From Dromaius novaehollandiae (taxonomy: Eukaryota > Chordata > Aves > Casuariiformes > Dromaiidae), in the NCBI RefSeq assembly GCF_036370855.1, contig NC_088108.1:14655448-14719447 (forward strand): 64,000 nucleotides of DNA. Reading direction: 5' to 3'. The position numbers and the translations under genes are program-made. This document shows, piece after piece, positions 1 to 62,976 of this stretch (position 1 is its first letter; each line of letters starts with the position of its first letter). The notes under the pieces are model-generated. The model was not told where the DNA came from. It worked only from the letters and a program-made list of their open reading frames with translations, and ran no database searches.

Positions 1-3000
1 TTGGTTTCCATGTCTTTGCTCACCTTGCGGAACTGCATATAGTGTTTGATGGCATCAATTTTTGCCTGGAACTCTGCCCTGGTGGCATTCATATTGGATA
101 TCATGGATCCCACGTTCCCCACAATGGTGGCAAAGATGAGGACGCCAATGAGGAAATCAAAGATCACAAAGAGATACTCTTCATCACGCACAGGAGGAGG
201 GGTCTCTCCAATGGTAGTTAAAGTCAGTGTAGACCAGTAGAGACAGTAGACGTACTCCCTGGTGAGATATCCATATTCAGGGTCTGTGACATTAGGATAA
301 ACCCAGGTGTCCTCTCCAAAGCCTATGGCTTTGGAGATGGCATAGTAAATGCATGCATTCCAGTGGATGATGACCAGGATGTAAAGAACCAAGTTGCTGA
401 TCCGAAAGATGTTGGGGTAGCTGGTTCTGGTCTCAGTCCTATCAAAGAACTCAAACATGCGGGAGAAGTGCAGCAGCCTGTTGAAACGCAATTCAGGGCG
501 GTGCAATCCCACAGCAAAGTACACCAGGTCTGTTGGCAGGATGGAGAAAACATCGAGCTTGAACTGTAAGGTGTGGATGTAGCTATCCCGTAATTTCTTC
601 AGGTCCTTAACCAGAAGGCCCTGTTCCAAGAAACCTAACAGAGAAGCAAATGATAGAATTATCTTGGCTTATGTACAACTCTTCTGCAGACTTCATGATA
701 AACCTTTCACAGTATGCCTTTCGCATGCATGCATATACACACAGAGTCATTCAAATATTACTAATTCCACCTGATCTACTGAGTTTACAAGCTTTCATTA
801 TCCCTCAAGCTCTTCATCTGGCAAAAGCCATGCAAAGATATCACTTAAGGATTTACTCTATTGTCTCAAAGAAATGGGGATGCAAAGGTTTCCATCCTCC
901 AGATCATGAATTATTGCAAGTTCTAGACAAAAAAATGCACAGCTGCCTCCCCATCCTGAGAACATTAAATTCTACCATTTTTCCATTTAGATCATTCATT
1001 AACTGAGCTGATATAAAATCAGAGATACAGACCTTCAACTATGCCTGAGTACTAATAGTAATGTGGGTAATTTTGTACAATTATTCAAAGGTGAAGTTGA
1101 AAGCTAGGATGATTAATGTTTCATTCTGAAACTTACTCTATTTCTCAGGTCTTTTAATTAGATTCTTTCTCTGGAGGCCGCTTCATACTAGCAAGCGCCA
1201 AGGTAGATAAAAACCCTCTTTCTAATGGAGCTATAGATCCCATCCCTTGCAGCTCATCCCCACTTTTAAGGAATTTTAAAAATCCACTCACAAGCTGGGA
1301 TGCTTCCTCCACTTACCTGTGCGCAGGCGGATCACCATGTCCCCAATATAGATACAGTCTGAGATGTAGTCTAATACCAGCCAGAGGACAACATAAGTCT
1401 TTTGTAGGTCACTGAAACAAGCCCTGGAGGATGACCACATAGTGGGGTGATGAGATCACCAAACACCCTTATCATCTCCAACCCAGCTGGTTCTGGGGCT
1501 CCTAAACGCTACAGCTGAGTTTGGTCACTTGCCCCCTCTGCTCCTAGAAATTAAATCCCTCTTCTCTGAATCACCTGCCCTCCCTTGACCGGGGTAAAGA
1601 AATGTTCTTGAGACCACCTCCCAAACGCACCTCACAGCCTTGCAAGCAGCTGCACCCGGAGAGGACAGTCCTTTCCCACCAGGGCCAGACAATGATGCAC
1701 TCTGCACTGCTGCAGTCACAACGAAATGGGAGGTCCTTTCCTTTAGGTTTCCACAGGCCCCAGCCCCAGCCCCAGCCTGGCCAGCTTCAGATACCTGATA
1801 CCAGCCTGAGCCACAACCACCAGATGAACAGGAGGGACAGGGGAGACAGGGACCCTACAAGCCTTCCAGCTCACCTGGCCACAAGCAAGCACCAGTTATA
1901 GAGGACAGGAACTGCAATGACAGCCAGCCAACGGTAATACCAGTCCCCCGCAGGGTCCACCACAAAGATCTGCCATTTCTTCCTGGAAGCAGAGAGAACC
2001 CAGAGCTGGCAGGCAATGTGTGAATAAAGAGCTAAATGTAAAAAATAGGGTTGGAAGGGAGCATCCAAGTCATCTCCTTCAGCCTTTGCACTAGACTGGC
2101 TTAAACATAGCTGCAGCTTGAGTGCCAGTCTCTAAGTTAGGCCCAATGCCAGGAGTGCTGAGTAAAAAGTCCAGCACCATTTAAGCTCCTTTATCCCCCA
2201 AACTGTGCTTGATGATGTACCAGAAGAGGAAACTGTAGCACAGCAAGGCAAAGCAGGCAGCCTACATGCACACAGCACATCAGTGGCAGAGCCAGAAACA
2301 GACATTTGGAAGAAGGTAATCAGAAAACTTCTCATTAGATGACATTGCTTCTCCCAGATACAGTAGGGATTGGAGCCGGATGGATTTTGAAGAAGAATAT
2401 TAATTAGGGCAGAAAGAAAAGTGTGCTGCCAGATCAGTGGGAGCACCAGGAGGTGCTGCCCAAACAACGGAGCGGTGGCCTGGGCGGACACCATTGCAGG
2501 GCCGCCACCCCCACTCTGCTCACAGCTGCCTCCTTGCAGTCTGCCCAGCCCTGGGTCCAGCCTTTGAACTGTTCCCAAGTGTTTGATCCAGCTTATCTCG
2601 GGACTCTGAAATAAGACGTGTGGGCTCCTGTCACCAGATCTCACTGGAGAAGCCGGGGAACAGAAACTGTGCAGCTGAGCTGATAGGCTGCTGAAGCCTG
2701 GTAGAGTAAAACTCCCTCTCGCCTTCCCTCCCTCCCAGCTTTTGAATATGCAAAACTCCCTCCAGCAATGGGAAGGAGAACTCCATTGCCAGCAGATAGC
2801 CCTGCACACCCCACTGCTTCTGATGCCTTCGAAAGCAAATCCTCTGCCTTGAAGCCGGCTTCCCTGGTGCCACGCAGGCAGCAGCACCTGCAGTGCCTGG
2901 AGTGCACGGATTAGCACCCCGAGCAGAGCCAGCAGCCATCATTCACATACGCTTTGGGTACAGCCACAGACAAGTGGGTGGTTCAACCTTCCCATTAGAA

Positions 3001-12102: not shown

Positions 12103-15100
12103 TCATCTCCTCAGCCAGAGCCATGTGTTGATGAGGCAGGCAGAGATCAGCACAGAGTAGACCAGAGCCTCCTTCTGACGCCAGCTGTTGCACTGCTCCT
12201 CCAGCACCCGGAGCCTCCCCGAGATCCTCGTCAACTGCAAGGAAAGCAGCAGGTCCATTATCAGTCCTGAGGCAAAGTGCAAGACACTAGCAAAGCCCCA
12301 GAAACGCAGGATAGCAGTGGATGAAGGGATGGGAGCTGCCGCCTCCTTCAGGTTCTCAAGAGCAGATGCTTCAGGAAAAGACTCTTCCCATCAGAAGAGC
12401 ATCTGGACCCATTACTGCAAGCAGATGGAGAGTCTGGCTGTCTCCTGTAGCCCTCCAGCCCCTCAGTGTAGGAGCCTGAAGGGTCAACAAACATCGAGGT
12501 CTTTCCCTCCTTTTCCATTAGAAGCATCATCTGGGACTAGCTTGGCAAAGCCAGCAAACCAGGACAGAGCAATGGACCCCTGGAGTGTCCCCATCTACCC
12601 TCCTGTGGCTTTCCCAGAAAACATCTGCAGTCTTTCACCCTCCTCTCTCACCTGTTTTCTCATTGCTGCCATCTCAGCCATGCCAACCTCCTCCAGGGAG
12701 CTTTCCGAGGCTGGGCCTGCCTCCTGGGAGCTGGGGAGAAAAACAGAGAGGCAAATGGGCAAATACTACTCAAGAGGTGCAATCACCTTCCTGCACACGT
12801 GGCCCTGCCCAGGGAAGCACAGGGCCTCAGCCTGCACAACTGTGCAGGTAGCACATGAGTGGCCAGGCCAGGCCACCCAGACGCAGCATCAGGAACAGGA
12901 AACAACTTGCACAGCATCAAATGATTTATTTTTAACCCTGATCATGCATATTTAGACCCCTCCACCATGCATCCCATAGTGATCACAGCAAAACACACAT
13001 GCTGCAGACAATTAAAAAAAAAAAAAAAAGCACATGCTTTTATTTCTCCAGAGTTCCAACAGAGACAAAACATGATATTTACCGAGCATCCATTTTCTAT
13101 AGCCAGAGGAATTCATTGAGGGTTGGATAAATCATCATTAGAGCAACTCAGGCAAATACAGAGCACAGGACCAATGCCGCAACGGAGGGATGATTCTCAT
13201 TTGCATCAGCAGGTGAGGATCCAGCTGCTGGGAAGCAGGCGTCAGCTGGGGGGGAGCTATCTGACCAAGTGCATCAACCAGCAGAAAAGGGTCCTGTTTT
13301 TACTTAGATAAGGATTCGTTCCCCTCCAGTACCTCTAAATCCCACAAGCTCACTTTGACCTCAAAAACGTATCAGTTTTTACCCTTATAGCAAATTCTAC
13401 TTGCAACTCGAAACATAAACAAGCAACCCAAACATGCACTAGTTTCTTCCAATCCCGGAGACAAAGCAGCCACCCCTGGGATTAGCAAACGGGCTCCTCC
13501 TGGAGAGACAACCTGACTACAGGGCCCACAGCACTAAGAGCCATGTTTTAGGAGTAGCCACAGAATAAAGTGGATCCACAGTGGAAATCAAAATTGCCAC
13601 GTTCTGTCTGTTGTTCTGACGTCATAGACTAGCCTTACAACAGTTCATTTATAATCCAAAATTCCCCTGTGCACACCGGTAACTCCCACGGACACTCACT
13701 GAACATCTGACGTAGTGTGAGTTAACAAGTGTCTAACACCACTCCCTTGGAGACCTCAGGGAGGAGGGTGTTTATTCCCATTTGCAACATGTCATTGATC
13801 TTGCTAAGACAAGCCAGAACAGTGTGCAGAGATTCAAGGTATCTAGGTCTGAAAATACATTCGTAAGCTAACACCTCCACGTAATGTAGCTGCAGTGTAA
13901 AATGAAAGTCACAACAGACCGACTATCCAATTTCCCCCAGCACAAAGCCATTAAAAATGGACCCATCCCACAGCTTTTAATTGAAAAATCCCAGTGGAGA
14001 CAGGTGAACATGCGTTGTAGTAGAGGCTAGAAATTACCTTCTGATGACTCATACCCTTCAAGAGGTCACTGTAATGGAAATAGTCTCTGTCCAAGGCCAG
14101 AGTTTTCTGTGTTAGAATTCCAGGATAAACAAGTTGGGCCAGTCATTTTCATTTTTATTATTTTATGGAGGTACAAAGTTGTCACACATTAAAGAGACAA
14201 CTTATGCATTTGAAGTGATGTAAACTATAAAGAACAGGCACTCCAAGGTTCTTGGTTTCAAAGGGAGAGCAAGAGCTGGGGCAGAGGCACAGGACTGATG
14301 CCAGCTACATTACAGCAGCTCAGCAAGTCACTACCTCTCATGACACCATGGCCTAAACCTCCTCCACTGCTGAGGGGAAGAGGGAGAGAATCTTATAAGG
14401 CCACTAACAAACCAGATCTGTTGGCATGTCCAGGCTTCTTTAAAAAGCTGCATCTGAAGATAGTCAGCCTCGTGGGTTTAAAAGCAGAGATATTGTTTTG
14501 CATCATCCACAAACAGGCCCCAACTTTGCTGCTTGCACCTTCACTCCAGTTGGTGCTGCTGATGGCATAGATGATGTATATACATGTGTCATATCCTTCT
14601 CTCCTCCCTTTCTGTCTGGAGATTTTGCTCAAGGAGAATTAGAAGAATTGAGATGTTCCTCCAGGACTGCTGAGTGCTCAGCAGCCTTAGAGCAGTGCGG
14701 ACATGTAAGGGTTGCAAAGGCAGCTGTGAATATTTTAAACTTGCTGCAAATGCACAGATAACAGTGTGGTACAGAGTGGCTCCAGCATGTCCTGAGATGC
14801 TGAGGTCACTGCCTACCTGATCGATGGAGCGCACAGGCATACGGCCTCCCGGCAGACCCTGGCCATAGGTATTGGCTATGGGTTAAGTAACTCAGTGCAG
14901 CCGTTTCTTGCAAAAGGTAATTTGACCAGGATATAGCCAAGGATGCTGGGAGTTTGCAGGAGACAGTGTCCTGGTGACAGGCTACAGATCAGAGAGTTTG
15001 TTCTGGATTTTGCTTCCCTTCATACATTTCTCTCGAGCTATCAAAGCATGCAGAAGAAGTAGCACTCACTTAGCACTGAAAAGCAGCTGAAATCCCAGGA

Positions 15101-18100
15101 ATCTCATAGGAGGTGTTAGATCACTTGCGGTAACAAAAGGAATGGTATTAAGCTAAGCAGGAGACCCAAGCTCAGCTGTGTCAGTGGGGAATATGCAGGC
15201 TGACTGTACTAGATGCTCCTGGGCCAAGGCACCCAAAGCTGGCGGACAGGGTAAGTAGGACATGGAGAGAGGGACAGGCACAGGATCATCCTGCTGCACT
15301 GCTCCTGTGCTGTGCAGCCCTGCGAGTTACAAAGCTCATGCCTGGTTCATGCCTTAGTAAGGCAAAGGCAGATGCCTGCAGAGCGACAGGGAGGTGGCTC
15401 AGGACGAGCCAAAGTCACCTGGATGGCACTGGGTCTTGCAGAGAGTTCTGGACACGGTGGAAGAGCACCTGGCCCAGGAGGCACATGGTCTGGAAGATGT
15501 TCTGCATGGAGTAGATCCTGCCCGTCTGCATAAGGAGGGGGAGCGGGGCGCTGCGAGCAGGTAGGGGGCACGTGTCCGGCCTGGGGTGCACACAGAATCA
15601 CGCCTGTCATTTCCCAGCCTAGTACAGCACGAGTGCAGTCGGACATTTGGTGGTGCCACTCATCCTTACGACAGCTCCGAGCCTTGTCAGGAACACCGCT
15701 AAGGTGGCCGTCTGCACAGACCTCCACCTCACTGGGTGGAAGAAACCCCCTCCACCAGCCCACAGGTTCAGAGGCACTAGCTTGACTCATCCCAAGCCAG
15801 TTGTGGCAATGGGTGGTCACCAGACCATAAGGGTCACAGAGGACAGCTCTCCTGCCACCCTGATGCAGCCCTCGACTTATAGGGGGAAAGATGGTTCTGT
15901 TCTGGGATTAATTTAGAGACAGTTTCCCCACTGGAGAGAATTTCTCCACCTTCCCCTTAACTAACTTCACGCAAGAGTAGGATTTGCCTGTCACTACCTT
16001 GCCCCACCTTGGGGACCAACACCAGAGAGCATCAAAAAAATGCAGACAGCAAGAGTTGCTGATCTCTACCCATCCCAAACAGTTCTGTGTTAGTGCTCAC
16101 CGTTCGTGGCACTGGCCTGGGCTGTGCAAAGCCAGCTGGGCATAGTCACTTGGAGTCCTCTCCCGCCGCGACCTGCTGCTGTGATGGCCCTGTTGGCATT
16201 AAACACAACCATGTTAGTGCAGAGACTGCACAGGGCAGCTCAGCCCAGCACCCTGCACCGTCTGCAGTGCAAGCACGAGGAAAGCACTCAGTGGCAGTTG
16301 CATTACATGAGCCCCAAACCCAGAGGGCCAGTGGCAGAGAAGGTGGGAAAACATGCTCTGAGCAGGAGGAGGGTTAGCAATGAGGAAGCTGCCTGGTATG
16401 GGGCTCTATTCAGATCAAAAAGTTCTTTTTTTTGATTTTTTTTTTTTTTGCACCTTACTTCACAGCTTATTTCCTCACATTTTACTTGGCAACATTAAAC
16501 AAACCCAAAACCTGGGAATAAGCGCCAAAGCAGGTCGTTTCCCAGTCTCATGCCTCCGGCTGATGAGGCATCCCTGTCCCTGCAGCAGGTGCGAGGCAAG
16601 CGCTCCACGTTCGCCTGCCAGCACGTGTCCCGGAGCTGGGTTTCATGGCACAGCCACACCTCACACCTCCCAGACAGCCCTGATGCCCCACACCTCCGGG
16701 ACAGCCCTGACCCATCACCCTCAGCAGTGCCTCTCTGAGCAGCACTGCTTAATCTCAGCCAGTCGTTGAGGTGGTTCCCTCTAGTTTCACCCACAGTTAG
16801 GAGCTGTGCAGTGCCAGGGAAGGGGAATTTGAAGTTTCAGCTGAGAAGGTGGATTCTGAGGAGAAAGACATGAAAGTAATGCAGCCAGGAACAGCTCTTG
16901 AATCCTAGGGAGGTAAAAGCACTTCAGAAGGCAGAGCAGCAGCTCCAGGCAGTCAAAACAGCCCTACCCATGTCAGAGGCCTCTCTTTGAATTAATGTAC
17001 ACAAGGTTAAAATCTACTTTTAAGCTTGATACTAGATTCTTTTATGCTGCAATGATGAAACAGCTGTCTTATACGTGATCCAGGAGAAACAGTGGTTGAA
17101 AAGAGACTTCAGAAGTACCAGGTGGGAGTTGTGGGGGACTGAATCGCAGCCTGCACCTACTCCAGCCTATTTTCTGCTCACAAAATGCAGTAGGAGACCT
17201 GGCTCAATCCATGTCCCAGCGTACAGCAGCCCAGCACACAGGTGTGTACCAGTTATGGGGATAGAAAGAGATCCCACTGCCTCTGCATTCAAGCTCCTGG
17301 GTAAGGGTGTGGGAAGCAGCACTCCAGAAAATGAATTCAGGCTTGGGCTTGTAACAGATCTCTGGAGAAAACCAAACCTAGGGATTGCTCCCCTCCCATG
17401 CTCCCACAGGCAGCCCCACCTGCTCTCAATACAATACCGGTCGTTTGCGTTTCTGGGAGCTTGATCTGTTGGCTACATGCAGAAAAGGGAGCTCCCCAAG
17501 TGCAGCAGGCTGAGCGGAGGAGTCTGGGGACTCGTGCACCACAATAGAGGGGACCTTCCTTTGCTGGTCTAGCAGGATGGGCCTCGGACCAGCATCTGTT
17601 ATTTCTATGGAGAGGAGAGAGGGAAGAATTAAACCAACTTGAATGTGCCCCGTTGCCGTCAGGACAGGAGGGAGGAGAGATCCACCCATGCAGGACAGCC
17701 AACCCTGGGTCTAGAGTTACCAGAAAGTACATCAGAAAACCACGTCCCACAGATGTGAGATGCAGGATAGCCAGGGTAGGCATGGAGGAAAGCAACTGGA
17801 TGCGCTAGTCCAGGAAAGCAACAGCACCAAGGTTTGGGGGCTGTCTTTCAAGAAAGGCCATGAGTCTCTGCATCCCTATGTGGGTAGTCTACCAAAGGCA
17901 AACAGCGAACTGTAAGAGATGTGGAGGGACAGAGTCCTCCTTCCCAAACCCTCATCCCAGCCCTGTTCTCAGTCTCCTTACTGCCTCTCTACCTGCAAAG
18001 ATATCCTGCCTCAGGCATGCACCAAACTATGTCTGTTCACTTAAACACTTCTTTTCCAGGACAATATTTTGGTCCTCATCTATGTGACCAAGACCCTCCT

Positions 18101-18488
18101 GCCTTCCGTTGGTTTTATTTGCTCACCTCTCCCACTGTGCTGCCCTATCTCATGGAAGAAAGCTGACATCTACCTTTTCCTCTCCTCTTGCATAGCAAAC
18201 TGTTGAGGGCTTTATAAAGGGATCCTTCTCCCCAGGATGTTACAGACACCCATCAAATATCAGCCATTCCAAAAGACAACCCGAGACATTACCTGCAAGA
18301 GAAATCCTATCTGGGATGTGCATCCGAAAGGACGGAGGAACATCCTCTGTCGTTGGCTCCTCGTCGACAGGGCTGAAGCCATCTGCTACCTTCAGCCTGT
18401 TGGGTACCTGCATGCTTTGATTGATGGCTTCTGTAAAGAGCAGGTCACAGCGGACTCGGTTCAGTTCCAGTCCCCAAAATGGCCACAT
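12103..18488 (-). CDS. FATE1: FATE1/MFF-like tail-anchored protein (226 aa)
   Basis: Five coding exons: 18293-18488, 17438-17604, 15419-15525, 12652-12730 and 12103-12234, with every phase matching. The ATG at 18488 has A at -3 and an in-frame TGA shortly upstream; the exon probably begins at 18521 after a good acceptor. Residues 18-34 read FTEAINQSMQVPNRLKV, against YTEGISQRMRVPEKLKV in human MFF. Residues ~56-65 (HIPDRISLA) match the second MFF motif (QVPERIVVA). Exons 4-5 read SSLEEVGMAEMAAMRKQ, then RLRVLEEQCNSWRQKEALV, against RLRALEEQGATWRHRETLI in human FATE1. The end is a tail anchor finishing INTWLWLRR, like MFF LNSWLWFRR. The expected role is in the mitochondrial outer membrane or at ER-mitochondria contacts, by family knowledge. 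Exons 2 and 3 are divergent. Position between CNGA2 and PRRG3 supports FATE1 orthology; 'MFF paralogue' is an equally valid name. MFF numbers and sequences are from memory. Confidence 0.88.
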
Positions 18489-19073
18489 CTTTTTTTGTTT
18501 TCTTCAGATCACTTGGGCAGCCTAGGATTTCATAAAGAGGAAGAAAAAGCAGCAGACTGCTGAAAGATAGTAGTAGCAAGCACCTCTTCAAAACCTGGCA
18601 TCTGCATAGGTTGCAGAGAAGTGCTGCAAGGCAGTTAAAATACAGAGAGAATCAACACGAAAGACGGACACCAGAGGAGTTAGCCCAGGGAGCGGGGTGT
18701 CCTGGGAAACCCAGAGGCTGGGGCAGGGGCACGGGGTCCCAGGCAGGCTGAGATCCACTACGGATGGGATCTCCAGCCCAGCAAGATGAGAAAGGAGAAA
18801 GCTCCTACATGTGCTAGGAGCAAACCTAAGATTTTAGCACTGAACAGCTCAGTTTATAATGAGTAAAGGGCAATAGATCAGCACACCTGTGGAAGAAGAA
18901 GAGTACAGCATACACTAAAAACTAGTGAAAAAAGAAAAAAAATCCTTTCCAAAATAAAGGTTTGGAGGAGGTCTTATTTTTGTGTTCAGATGCTTTCAAG
19001 GAAAAATGAGGTTTTCTAAGAGCAAAACACACACTTGGATGATAAGATTCCAGATTACCACAGGAAAAAGCCT

Positions 19074-26968: not shown

Positions 26969-32946
<5,978 letters not shown>

Positions 32947-38428: not shown

Positions 38429-40041
38429 TCACACCGCCCGGGCTGCGCCGGGTGCCCGCCGCGGGGAGCCTGGCTCCCGGGGGGGCACGGCCTCCTCCTC
38501 CTCCTCCTCGTCGTCCTCCTCCTCCTCGCTGTCCGAGTCGTCGTAGAGGCAGAGCGTGGCCTGCACGGGGAAGCTGTGCAGCAGCCTCTCCCCCACGCTG
38601 TACAGATAGTCGAAGGACTTGGACCTGGGCCAGAGGAGCCTGCGTGGGGAGAGCCGCCCGCCTGAGACCCCCGGCCTCGGGGGGCCCCGGCCCGGCCCGG
38701 CGCTGAGCCCCGCTGGCCGCCGCTGCGGTGGCACCGGGCAGCAGAGGACCCACCTGACCGGGTGGTGGAAGGGCGCCAGCGCCTTGTCCCCCGCCGCGTT
38801 GTCGGGGCCGCCGTCCCCCGCCGCACCGTGGGGCCGAGCCTGCGGAGACACCGCCCGGGTGGGCACCTGCCCGGCATCCCACTGCCCCCCTCCTCCTGTC
38901 ACGGCCCCCGGGGCGCAGGGCCACGCAGCCTCAGGAGGGGGGACGGCAGCGGGGTTGGGGACCTTTTCCAGCCGCCGGGATGGTTTTACACCCGCCCCAG
39001 ACCTTGCAGCCCCCGTGCAACAGCCTTGGAGGCTCAGCCTCCACCGGACCCTGCTTCTCCCCCCGCCTGCGTTGCACGGGCCGTGGTCCCTGCACCCCGC
39101 CGAGGGAGCTGGCATCCAGGCCTCGCCGGCGGGCTGTGTGCCAGCGTAATCTCCCTGCCGCGCTCCAAAGCTCCTGCCCAGACGCCCGCTAACCCCCTGA
39201 GGAATGCCCCCAGCCACCTCTCCGGCCCCCGCGCAGCCCTCCGCACTGCCAGCGGGCTCTGCCCGGCGCTGCCTCCGGCCGTGGGGCACTGTGGGGGCGC
39301 GCAGGCTGCTCCACCGGGGTGTCCCCCGCTTGCTGGCCCTTCTCCTCCTCCTCCTCCTCCTCCTCATGGAGCCCCGCCACCCTCCACGAGGCAGATGGGC
39401 TCGGGCTGACCCCGGCTCGGGGCTGGAGGGGTGTCGGGATGCAGGGACCCTCCGGAGCCTGGGGGCGCTTGTGATGGGTGCAGGCGTCTGGGGCAAGAGG
39501 GCGGTTTTCTGCCTGCCCCGGACGGGGACCCCGATCCCTGTGGTGGGAGAAGGGGGACCCAGCAGGGAGCGTAACACTCACGGTATGCATCTGCGGGCCG
39601 GACGCCTCCTCGTCCCGGGGCAGCCACGGTCTCCAGAGAGGCAGGGCTCTGCGGGGAGAGCGGGCTCAGTGCCACCGCAGCCCTGGCCCGCTCCCCCTCC
39701 ACACACTGTCCCCCCGCACCCCAGCCGCGCGCCCGCACGGGCCCCGGCCCCAGCCCCGCTGGGCCATCGGACGCCTGCGGGTGCACCCGTGCCAGCCCAG
39801 CCCGCAGCACCCGCAGCGCCCCTCTGCCTGCTCCCCCCCCCAAGGGACCTGGCACTGCTCCCCGGGTCTGCGCCCCCTCTCCCAGCCGCAGCCGCTGGGA
39901 TCAGCGCAGCCTTCACCCCCGCGCCCCTGCCCTGCAGCGCCCGCGGTACCTGCCCCCTTGCTCAGGCCGTGGGGCCAGGCCAGTGCCGGCTGCGGGCAGC
40001 CGGGGCCAGGCAGCAGGCAGGCAGCAGGCGGTAGCTTCCAT
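38429..40041 (-). CDS. RIPPLY1: RIPPLY1, Groucho-recruiting repressor of T-box factors (151 aa)
   Basis: Nuclear co-repressor adaptor that turns T-box activators such as TBX6 into repressors during somite formation. Exons: 39950-40041, 39582-39648, 38754-38839 and 38429-38639; all phases agree and give 151 residues, the same length as the human protein as I recall it. The ATG at 40041 has a perfect Kozak context (GCCACCATGG). Exon 2 has the Groucho/TLE-binding motif in LPLWRPWLPRD. Exons 3-4 encode the Ripply homology domain: FHHPVRLLWPRSKSFDYLYS, then FPVQATLCLYDDSDSEEEE, with R split between exons. The acidic run is followed by a Pro/Arg/Ala tail that I do not recall from mammals. The neighbouring CLDN2 and MORC4 identify it as RIPPLY1 rather than RIPPLY2 or RIPPLY3. 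Confidence 0.95.
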
Positions 40042-43500: not shown

Positions 43501-43930
43501 TCCACGAAACGCAGCGCTACAACGCGCGGGTGCTGCTAACACCCAGCCGCCGGCGCTGGGCACAGTGACGTCCCGCGGCTCCCCGTGTGCCAGGGCGGCA
43601 GCGGGCCCCTCCACGGCGCGGGGGCTGCCGGCGCTTGGCTAGCGGGGCCGGCTCAGCCCCTTCCCGCGCCCGGCAGCGGCCCGGCGCAGAGGAGGGCCCT
43701 GGCGGTCTGGCACCCTTCCCGGGCAGCGCCGCACTGCCTCTGAAGTGCAGCGGGAAGATAGCGGAGGTGAAAGGGCGCTTGGCATTTCTCCGGAGGCTCG
43801 GGTCAATCGTTAATCAGGGAGGGATCGCTTTTCACTCTTCCAGGTAACCTCTCCTCCCCCGGCTCCCACCCACGCGCCGCTGCCCGCACAAAAGCAGCGC
43901 CCCCGGGAGCGGGGTGCAGAGGAGCCGCCG
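40525..43930. other. Intergenic between divergent RIPPLY1 and CLDN2
   Basis: The two genes point away from each other, so this interval holds both upstream regions. It is GC-rich with many CpGs, especially at about 41.8-43.0 kb and from 43.5 kb on. Long open frames on both strands reflect base composition. No exon was recognised. A noncoding first exon of CLDN2, usual in mammals, may lie here; GTTAATCA at 43810-43817 resembles an HNF1 half-site. Confidence 0.5.
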
Positions 43931-43938
43931 GCCGGGCC

Positions 43939-43950
43939 ATGGGAAGGTAG
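43939..43950 (+). other. Minimal upstream open frame before CLDN2
   Basis: ATGGGAAGGTAG encodes only Met-Gly-Arg and lies 92 nt upstream of the CLDN2 start in another frame. It overlaps the donor-like GAAG|GTAGGC, so it may instead mark the end of a leader exon. Confidence 0.3.
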
Positions 43951-44030
43951 GCGCGCGCGGGAGAGCTGCCAGCGAGCCGGGCGAGAGGCAGTGGCACCGC
44001 GAGCCCCGGGGAGGTGACACGTGCGCCGAC

Positions 44031-44726
44031 ATGGTCTCCACGGGGCTCCAGCTGGTGGGCTACACCGTGGCCTTCCTGGGCTACGTCGGCACGCTGACGA
44101 CCACGCTGCTGCCCACCTGGAAGATCAGCTCCTACATCGGCTCCAGCATCGTGACGGCCGTGGGCTTCACCAAGGGGCTGTGGATGGAGTGCGCCACGTA
44201 CAGCACGGGCATCACCCAGTGCGACATCTACAGCTCCCTGCTCAACCTGCCCGCCGACGTCCAGGCGGCCCAGGCCCTGATGGTGAGCTCCAGCGCCGTC
44301 TCCTCCCTCGCCTGCCTCATCGCCATCATGGGCATGAGGTGCACCATCTTCATGCAAGGCTCGCCAGCCAAGGACAGGGTGGCAGTGACGGGCGGCGCGG
44401 TCTTTGTGCTCGGGGGGCTGCTCTGCTTCATCCCCGTGGTCTGGAACATCCACGTGGTGCTGCGGGATTTCTACAACCCCCTGCTCCCCGACAGCACCAA
44501 GTACGAGATGGGTGAGGCGCTCTACCTGGGCATCATCTCCTCGCTGCTCTCCCTCATCGGTGGCTTCATCCTCTGCGCCTCCTGCCCTCCCCGGGACTCG
44601 CCAGACACCTACCACAGCACCTACCAGCCCCGGCTGCTGGGGGGCAAGAGCCCCCAGCCCTCCACCAGCCAGACGCAGAAGACCAAGAGCGAGTTCGGCT
44701 CCTACAAACTGACGGGATACGTGTAG
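44031..44726 (+). CDS. CLDN2: CLDN2, claudin-2 (231 aa, single coding exon)
   Basis: Tetraspan tight-junction protein that forms a paracellular pore for small cations and water. The frame is 231 residues (human: 230). Extracellular loop 1 has the claudin signature W30, GLW 49-51, C54 and C64, with D65 directly after C64 (TQCDIYS), the residue known to give claudin-2 its cation selectivity. Four membrane spans lie at about 8-28, 82-102, 117-137 and 163-183. Loop 2 has RDFYNPLLPDS. The tail ends LTGYV, the PDZ-binding motif for ZO proteins. The ATG at 44031 starts MVSTGLQLVGYT, aligned with mammalian MASLGLQLVGYI; upstream in-frame codons before it contain no better ATG. It lies on the strand opposite to every other gene here. 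Confidence 0.98.
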   Translation: MVSTGLQLVGYTVAFLGYVGTLTTTLLPTWKISSYIGSSIVTAVGFTKGLWMECATYSTGITQCDIYSSLLNLPADVQAAQALMVSSSAVSSLACLIAIMGMRCTIFMQGSPAKDRVAVTGGAVFVLGGLLCFIPVVWNIHVVLRDFYNPLLPDSTKYEMGEALYLGIISSLLSLIGGFILCASCPPRDSPDTYHSTYQPRLLGGKSPQPSTSQTQKTKSEFGSYKLTGYV

Positions 44727-61900: not shown

Positions 61901-62976
61901 TTGCCCCAGGACAGTTAGTCAATTGGCACATTTAACTAAAACCCATCAAATCCTTCATATATCCTATAATTTAAACGGCCAGTTTCTTCCAGCTCAGAGT
62001 CTGCTATTTTAAGTGTATGAGGAAAAAGAGGTCAGGCACGACCAAAGCAAGCACGTACTAAAGCAGTGCTATAAATGCTGGCTTCTGTTTAAGGGGGAGA
62101 CAGAATGTGAACATACTAAGTACGAAGAAGAATGGGAACAAGCTAGCAACAACTTTTTCGGTAGGATACTTGTTTTCACTCCATACCTTTATCTTCCAAG
62201 GAGAGACTGGAGAAATGCCAGTAGAGACCTGGCTCGTACAATATCCTGTTTTAAGGAATCTCTGTACTCATAAGTGCATGGACAGTTAGCAGGAACCCAC
62301 ACATTTGACACAAACCATTTGTATTTCAAGGATGTGGGATGGCAGCGAGAAAAGTCACCCAGGACTCTATCCGTGAGTCCCTACCTGTATTTGGGGAGGG
62401 GATGGAGATAGCAAAACCACTTTTCTGGTAACGATGCGAGATCAACCTGGTCAGGGAGTTTCCTCCATTTCAGACACTCCTCACACTGCACCCATGTCTG
62501 GTCTGGTCTCTCTCTGCAAAAACCAACACACAGTCTAAATATCTCAGGTGCAGGGCAAATGCTGGGAAAGGCTGGTCAGTGCAAGCGCTGCCACCCAACC
62601 CCAAGGTGGTCCCAGCCCATTCAGCACAGCACGTGGGATAGTCTGGGGCACTGATGTCCATCTGCTCTCCCAGGAACACCCTGCCCATGGTGTGGCATCC
62701 CTCCCACTAATCATGGGGCCAAACTCCATGAGTTCAAAGCTTGGCTCCCAAAATGAAGGAGGGATACAGTCACCTGTTTGCTGCCTCTGACCCTCCAAGT
62801 GGCACATCCCTACCCCACCTTGGCTGAGGGAAATGCCCAGGCTGTTAGTGCTGACAAAGATCAGAGCTGGCTCTCACGCTACTATGCAGGCTGCATCCGC
62901 ACTTCCCAAATTCATCTGGGCCATCTTCACCTTCCAGTAGGCATTGAGTTTCTGCCCCAGCACAGTGACTGTCCGT
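55964..62976 (-). CDS. MORC4: MORC4, MORC-family CW-type zinc finger protein 4 (C-terminal part)
   Basis: Nuclear GHKL-ATPase of the MORC family; only the part after the ATPase core is here. Exons: 62878-62976, 62385-62513, 60324-60401, 60026-60095, 59549-59653, 58332-58513, 57050-57764, 56551-56834 and 55964-56117, with matching phases. The first carries [13 protein letters not shown], the end of the S5 domain. The next two form the CW zinc finger: [19 protein letters not shown], then the fourth cysteine in [11 protein letters not shown]. Then come a divergent linker, [10 protein letters not shown], and a coiled coil with [20 protein letters not shown]. The end, [15 protein letters not shown] to ETNRMLE, matches human MORC4 closely. 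Two SUMO-type motifs occur: VKLE and IKQE. The donor at 56551 was chosen because it joins GDVKR to VMEKL, as in human. Candidate extra exons at 60259-60291 and 60139-60207 keep phase. The 5' exons lie right of the window. Confidence 0.95.

Follow-up and report, generated by a model that had tools for sequence, protein, structure and literature searches.

The window, i.e. the whole stretch of 64,000 nucleotides (nt) of the Dromaius novaehollandiae genome analysed here (C11:14655448-14719447), harbours a minus-strand gene of six coding exons between CNGA2 and PRRG3, the predicted product of which joins the tail of FATE1 and the front of MFF in one protein. With a probability of about 0.83, this gene represents a non-mammalian FATE1 ortholog that still possesses the complete MFF architecture, FATE1 and MFF being ancient paralogs. 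The following features constitute the gene model, with counterparts among exons A-H of the MFF gene of the same genome:

18293..18488, minus strand: coding exon 1, with the ATG, MFF repeat 1 (QSMQVPNRLKVA) and MFF repeat 2 (FRMHIPDRISLA); end phase 1
18489..18521, minus strand: possible 5' untranslated region of exon 1; weak acceptor AG at 18523-18522 (score 0.8)
17438..17604, minus strand: coding exon 2 (167 nt; start phase 1, end phase 0); MFF counterpart: exon B (173 nt)
16101..16189, minus strand: coding exon 3 (89 nt; start phase 0, end phase 2); MFF counterpart: exon C (89 nt)
15419..15580, minus strand: coding exon 4 (162 nt; phase 2 at both ends); MFF counterpart: exon E (159 nt)
12652..12730, minus strand: coding exon 5 (79 nt; start phase 2, end phase 0), where the coiled coil begins; MFF counterpart: exon G (85 nt)
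12103..12234, minus strand: coding exon 6 (132 nt including the stop), with coiled coil, transmembrane tail anchor and terminal RR; MFF counterpart: exon H (132 nt)

The six exons (196 nt from the ATG, 167, 89, 162, 79 and 132 nt; phases 1, 0, 2, 2 and 0) join from 18488 to 12103 as a single open frame. Exon 1 carries FTEAINQSMQVPNRLKV and HIPDRISL and has an in-frame stop directly upstream of the ATG; exon 6 (12234-12103) carries RLRVLEEQCNSWRQ, the transmembrane segment and the stop. Motifs, frame and coordinates (exon 1, 18488-18293; last exon, 12234-12103; minus strand) are as claimed in an earlier, sequence-only reading of this DNA, which had described five exons with matching phases at four junctions and a protein of 226 residues. 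The matching phases and the open frame hold for five junctions instead of four, the in-phase exon at 15580-15419 having been overlooked; the five-exon chain yields 220 amino acids (aa) and the six-exon chain 274 aa. The 274-aa form is the likely product, with the 220-aa form expected if exon 4 is skipped; exon 4 may be alternatively spliced. Splice scores (acceptor and donor, respectively) are 8.1 and -1.6 (CCG/gtattg) for exon 2, 0.1 (weak) and 4.5 for exon 3, 3.5 and 4.2 for exon 4, and 7.4 and 6.7 for exon 5. A start of exon 1 at FTEAINQ, ahead of which lies an acceptor-like tract (ctctttacag), was rejected: the upstream residues ELNRVRCDLLFTEA align with EINRLQYEMEYTEG of the genome's own MFF, and the beginning of the Pfam alignment of the 274-aa form at residue 8 likewise counts against such a start.

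Miff (PF05644) was the sole Pfam family above cut-off for the protein. The profile search against the MFF family, proposed by the sequence-only reading, gave E=1.9e-26 and 93.9 bits (cut-off 23) for the 220-residue form, and 1.4e-24 and 87.8 bits for the 274-residue form. Either end on its own also matches Miff, with E=7.1e-9 for the N-terminal 53 residues and 1.1e-12 for the C-terminal 59, and because these two matches are independent, the similarity is not due to chance. The two N-terminal MFF motifs that had been claimed are thereby borne out; the repeats QSMQVPNRLKVA and FRMHIPDRISLA are identical to those of the own-genome MFF at 8/12 and 5/12 positions, respectively. At the other end, a coiled coil and a transmembrane tail anchor are predicted, the latter as a hydrophobic 18-mer (mean hydropathy 1.77) followed by the terminal RR. 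No Pfam match was obtained with the exon 2-3 stretch alone or with exon 4 alone, and no PDB match at E up to 1 with the 220-aa protein. A DUF4684 match to residues 61-194 of the 220-aa form (12652-18293) remained below cut-off (23.6 versus 27.2 bits) and was set aside as probably compositional.

Searching the genome (1.468 Gb, 271 contigs) with the Miff profile (E up to 0.001), with nine of nine first-look candidates scored, revealed seven exon matches at two loci, the window and contig C9. The 220-residue protein retrieved ten matches: its own gene accounts for five, the C9 gene for two (single exons, E 0.03 and 0.05), and the other three have E above 1. At the sensitivity of these profile and protein searches, no second FATE1 candidate, which the sequence-only reading had named as an objection, was found elsewhere in the genome. 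The C9 gene (C9:20.31-20.33 Mb, hence on another contig than the window gene) is the genome's MFF, and its coding exons A-H were rebuilt with 181 (from the ATG), 173, 89, 75, 159, 63, 85 and 132 nt and phases 1, 0, 2, 2, 2, 2 and 0. Window exons 1, 2, 3, 5 and 6 correspond to MFF exons A, B, C, G and H, with agreeing intron phases at all five shared junctions. Two of six exon lengths are identical (89 and 132 nt) and others are close (167/173, 162/159 and 79/85 nt). Exon 4 pairs with MFF exon E by phase and length; exons D and F have the same phases and other lengths. Sequence similarity is strongest at both ends of the protein, i.e. between exon 1 and MFF exon A (24/59 identical; z-score 11.3) and between exon 6 and MFF exon H (15/43 identical; z 11.3), with 0 of 1000 shuffles in each case; for exon 5 and MFF exon G it is modest (z 3.5; 1 of 1000 shuffles). 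The own MFF exon B (C9:20331954) apparently possesses a GC donor (GAG/gctagt) and window exon 2 a poor GT donor, making this junction odd in both paralogs.

Candidates for the middle exons, sought between exons 1 and 5, had to resemble the MFF exons in length and phase, to keep the frame open and to exceed splice-score thresholds (acceptor and donor: 5.0 and -1.7 for exon 2, 0.0 and 4.0 for exon 3, 3.4 and 4.0 for exon 4). A single real candidate was detected for exon 2 at 161-185 nt (60 shuffles, mean 0.05 and maximum 1 each). The same holds for exon 3 (exactly 89 nt) and exon 4 (153-165 nt), with 0 of 200 shuffles yielding a candidate in either case. Looser lengths allowed two real candidates each for exon 3 (83-95 nt) and exon 4 (60-180 nt), and at least one candidate in 13 and 12 of 200 shuffles, respectively. 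Higher splice thresholds for exons 3 and 4 left no candidates, the reported exons included. These shuffle tests overstate significance, because the site frequencies were assumed and the thresholds, lying at or below the observed scores, were chosen after these had been seen. Counterparts of MFF exons D (75 nt) and F (63 nt) were not found in the introns (12731-18286, at the lowered splice thresholds used for exons 3 and 4).

Taken side by side, the window gene resembles MFF in the match to PF05644 over the full length of its product, the two N-terminal repeats, the coiled coil with transmembrane tail and the exon-intron plan, and differs from it in the separate locus, a tail with only 18/59 identical residues, the missing counterparts of exons D and F, and an altered KRERSMS stretch. 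The latter, an AMPK site of MFF, reads RRERTPS in exon 3, with proline at +1, and AMPK control may therefore differ. Among invertebrates, MFF is represented by Tango11 of Drosophila, which papers mention together with MFF.

For comparison with human, the sequences of FATE1 and MFF as well as the human gene order were taken as known and not from database records. Of the 59 C-terminal residues of the window protein, 29 are identical to human FATE1 and 18 each to human and own-genome MFF, the two MFF tails sharing 55 of 59 residues. In a tree of these four C-tails, the window protein groups with FATE1 and the two MFFs with each other (bootstrap 100, 500 replicates; informative columns 15:0:0), in agreement with the claimed FATE1-like C-terminus. 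The close likeness of human and own-genome MFF tails implies that MFF and FATE1 split before the window lineage diverged from human. The window protein ends on RR as does MFF, and human FATE1 on NQ. In human FATE1, the Miff match is confined to residues 114-182, and comparison of the first 110 residues with the N-terminal parts of the window protein and MFF was without signal (z 0.2 and 0.3). Tail identity between the human FATE1 and MFF sequences used (18/57) is in line with the 29 % identity already published; in the excerpt of that paper (PMC4660212), FATE1 is described as largely disordered except for the coiled coil and transmembrane domain, which direct it to mitochondria.

The window gene therefore shares with human FATE1 a locus between CNGA2 and PRRG3 and a C-terminal coiled coil with tail anchor (29/59 identical), and unlike the short human protein, devoid of detectable MFF repeats, it keeps both repeats and the full MFF layout. 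Judged from its sequence, it would be a FATE1 ortholog by descent and not the mammalian form of FATE1. This suggests that FATE1 began as a full MFF copy, the front half of which was lost in mammals; the proposed mammalian loss of the N-terminal arm derives from one mammalian FATE1 sequence, that of human. The proposal that FATE1 is an MFF paralogue with a non-mammalian ortholog in ancestral layout is accordingly supported by locus, tail tree, both N-terminal repeats, and exon phases and lengths. The description of FATE1 as fast-evolving does not agree with the human-chimp dN/dS of 0.1755, which is not high (PMC1890293, excerpt), even though the N-terminus has changed beyond recognition over the longer span.

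CNGA2, the window gene and PRRG3 are consecutive and all located on the minus strand, and the claimed FATE1 position is upheld by the matches to both neighbours. The same order and orientation presumably apply to human CNGA2-FATE1-PRRG3 at Xq28. The neighbouring features of the window are:

3..668, minus strand: CNGA2 exon (PDB CNGA2 9upf, E 2.5e-132; next CNGA3, 1.1e-110)
26972..27565, minus strand: open frame taken to contain the transmembrane/PPxY C-terminal exon of PRRG3; no Pfam match alone
28107..28142, minus strand: core of the Gla-domain exon of PRRG3 (PF00594, 1.1e-19 on the joined two-exon query)
38432-39577: Ripply gene (E 1.4e-20)
43848-44723: claudin, taken to be CLDN2 (best PDB matches claudin-9 and claudin-4)
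62384-62575: CW domain of a MORC gene (PDB MORC4 8e-16, with MORC3 close at 4.1e-15)

Human RIPPLY1-CLDN2-MORC4 presumably reside at Xq22.3. Two blocks distant on the human X would thus adjoin in the window, since PRRG3 (Xq28) is followed by the Ripply, claudin and MORC4-like genes (Xq22.3). A separate 28-Mb contig bearing this Xq-type block, with MFF-COL4A3/4-IRS1 on a different one, fits the karyotype of a bird with a chromosome 4A, as does the genome size. Near the Ripply gene, the segment 36001-38000 displays a GC skew of -0.476 and a translation with repeated units such as TPHPTAPCHPTAP, and looks like a minisatellite. CR1-type 3' ends were not found within the window.

Concerning the age of the gene pair, MFF lies 3' of COL4A3 in most vertebrates compared (PMC12141075, excerpt), and early vertebrate genome duplications are regarded as the source of the three COL4-IRS blocks (PMC5482937, excerpt). 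All 24 listed matches to the collagen IV C4 domain fall on C1:155.7-156.0, C9:20.35-20.49 and C11:6.71-6.94 Mb, and the best three of 24 IRS-domain matches, located at C1:156.15, C9:20.58 and C11:6.68 Mb, are long open frames (1237-1256 residues). The blocks were named COL4A1/2-IRS2 (C1), COL4A3/4-IRS1 (C9) and COL4A5/6-IRS4 (C11) by linkage, not by trees. MFF on C9 is located within 15 kb of its COL4 pair, and the window gene (C11:14.67 Mb) 7.7 Mb from the pair on its contig of 28.05 Mb. The presence of COL4 and IRS on both contigs is suggestive of MFF and FATE1 as early-vertebrate duplicates, two gene families being compared. FATE1 and MFF are probably ancient paralogs from the early-vertebrate genome duplications, residing in the COL4A5/6-IRS4 and COL4A3/4-IRS1 regions, respectively. 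A review places FATE1 in strata 10-16, i.e. at a mammalian-human origin (PMC10380301, excerpt); the window locus argues against this dating. Among the IRS-domain matches, C33:59259470-59260047 and C35:72960788-72961365 have identical scores and spacing, and perhaps represent Z/W gametologs or a duplicated haplotype.

In the excerpts consulted, MFF is anchored by a C-terminal transmembrane domain, binds DRP1 via its N-terminal domain and is phosphorylated by AMPK, which promotes fission (review PMC8066130), and human MFF is drawn with two repeats, a coiled coil and a transmembrane domain (PMC3798195). By homology and composition, the outer mitochondrial membrane is the most likely location of the window protein, with peroxisomes as a possible further one; the C-terminal transmembrane segment, ending in the basic RR, would anchor it there, and the coiled coil would allow self-association. 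The exposed N-terminal arm with its two MFF repeats could recruit DRP1; from the sequence, the chances that the window protein does bind DRP1 appear about even. In mammalian FATE1, the tail would have been retained and the arm lost, so that a former fission adaptor would now do no more than reside on mitochondria and keep them at a distance from the endoplasmic reticulum (ER). As a tentative extension, FATE1 would be the early-vertebrate sister of MFF, serving non-mammals as a second full-length DRP1 adaptor, possibly specific to gonad or adrenal, and the mammalian cancer-testis form would have arisen by loss of the DRP1-binding arm.

Several observations weigh against the proposed orthology and its functional reading. 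Within the middle of the protein, exon 2 has no significant sequence similarity to MFF exon B (z 0.6), and similarity is weak between exon 3 and MFF exon C (z 2.4; 23 of 1000 shuffles) as well as between exon 4 and MFF exon E (global alignment, z 2.1; 26 of 1000 shuffles), the latter exon scoring z -0.5 and -0.4 against MFF exons D and F, respectively. Local alignment of exon 4 with the human MFF cassette exons and FATE1 middle gave no signal (z 0.3 each), its length and phase relative to the own-genome MFF exons being more telling, and its inclusion lowers the whole-protein Pfam score from 93.9 to 87.8 bits. To these add the poor exon 2 donor (-1.6) and exon 3 acceptor (0.1), the reliance on human sequences and gene order taken as known, the naming of the COL4-IRS blocks by linkage, the loose FATE1-COL4 linkage on C11 resulting from the distance of 7.7 Mb, and the possible loss of DRP1 binding, given repeats with only 8/12 and 5/12 residues identical to own-genome MFF. 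The two poor splice sites, together with the dissimilarity of exon 2, are also what a decaying or non-expressed relic would present, with an intact frame in a gene no longer spliced or used; that is very unlikely for six exons open in frame, which since the split from MFF have retained every shared phase and, in two cases, the precise length; at such an age, breakage would be expected. Even less credible is a lineage-specific MFF copy inserted at this locus with a convergent FATE1-like tail. Its N-terminus does match MFF and not FATE1, but the tail is closer to FATE1 (29/59) than to either MFF (18/59), the MFF tails sharing 55/59 residues (human sequences as above), and the gene occupies the FATE1 position with introns that exclude a retrocopy. 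An MFF retrocopy or a displaced MFF is ruled out by the introns, the separate MFF locus on C9 and the tail tree.

Two further alternatives accept the gene and concern its function and origin. The same ortholog might already act as a FATE1-like ER-mitochondria spacer, e.g. in steroidogenic or testis cells, with repeats that no longer recruit DRP1. Such a role, the main rival reading and possible though less likely, would agree with the FATE1-like C-tail, with RRERTPS in place of KRERSMS (proline at +1), with the limited identity of both repeats to those of own-genome MFF, and with the description of FATE1 as a spacer of ER and mitochondria, under SF-1 control in adrenocortical carcinoma cells, testis and adrenal (PMC5832420, excerpt). 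The spacer role has been seen only for mammalian FATE1, however, and the retention of both repeats and the entire N-terminal exon with detectable similarity (z 11.3) suggests that they are in use. As to origin, FATE1 and MFF could stem from a local or segmental duplication instead of a whole-genome duplication, in view of only two linked families (COL4 and IRS) compared and a distance of 7.7 Mb on a 28-Mb contig. This is considered less likely: as would be expected of duplicate blocks, MFF is found within 15 kb of a COL4 pair on C9, and the contig that bears the second Miff locus has a COL4-IRS block of its own. The interpretation as a FATE1 ortholog with complete MFF architecture is preferred.

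A literature search, in which subscription journals were thinly covered and annotation databases lay outside, yielded no account of FATE1 outside mammals. PMC7096497 as a report on newt FATE1 was rejected (the word 'fate' plus a reference number), and PMC10847125 as a FATE1 paper likewise (a cited title ending in 'fate1'). A 2019 review lists no mouse model for FATE1 (PMC7864851, excerpt). Bird annotations may already contain the window gene under the name 'mitochondrial fission factor-like' or FATE1. Viewed as an annotation, it adds an ortholog to a known gene of a known family; what is unusual about it is the intermediate form. FATE1 has been studied as a tumour-reactivated mitochondrial protein. 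An intermediate with a FATE1 tail and an MFF front unites both genes in one family, places the origin of FATE1 earlier than the separation of mammals and sauropsids, and leads to a prediction of the parts lost in mammals. The change from a fission adaptor to an ER-mitochondria spacer thereby becomes a question testable via domain swaps.

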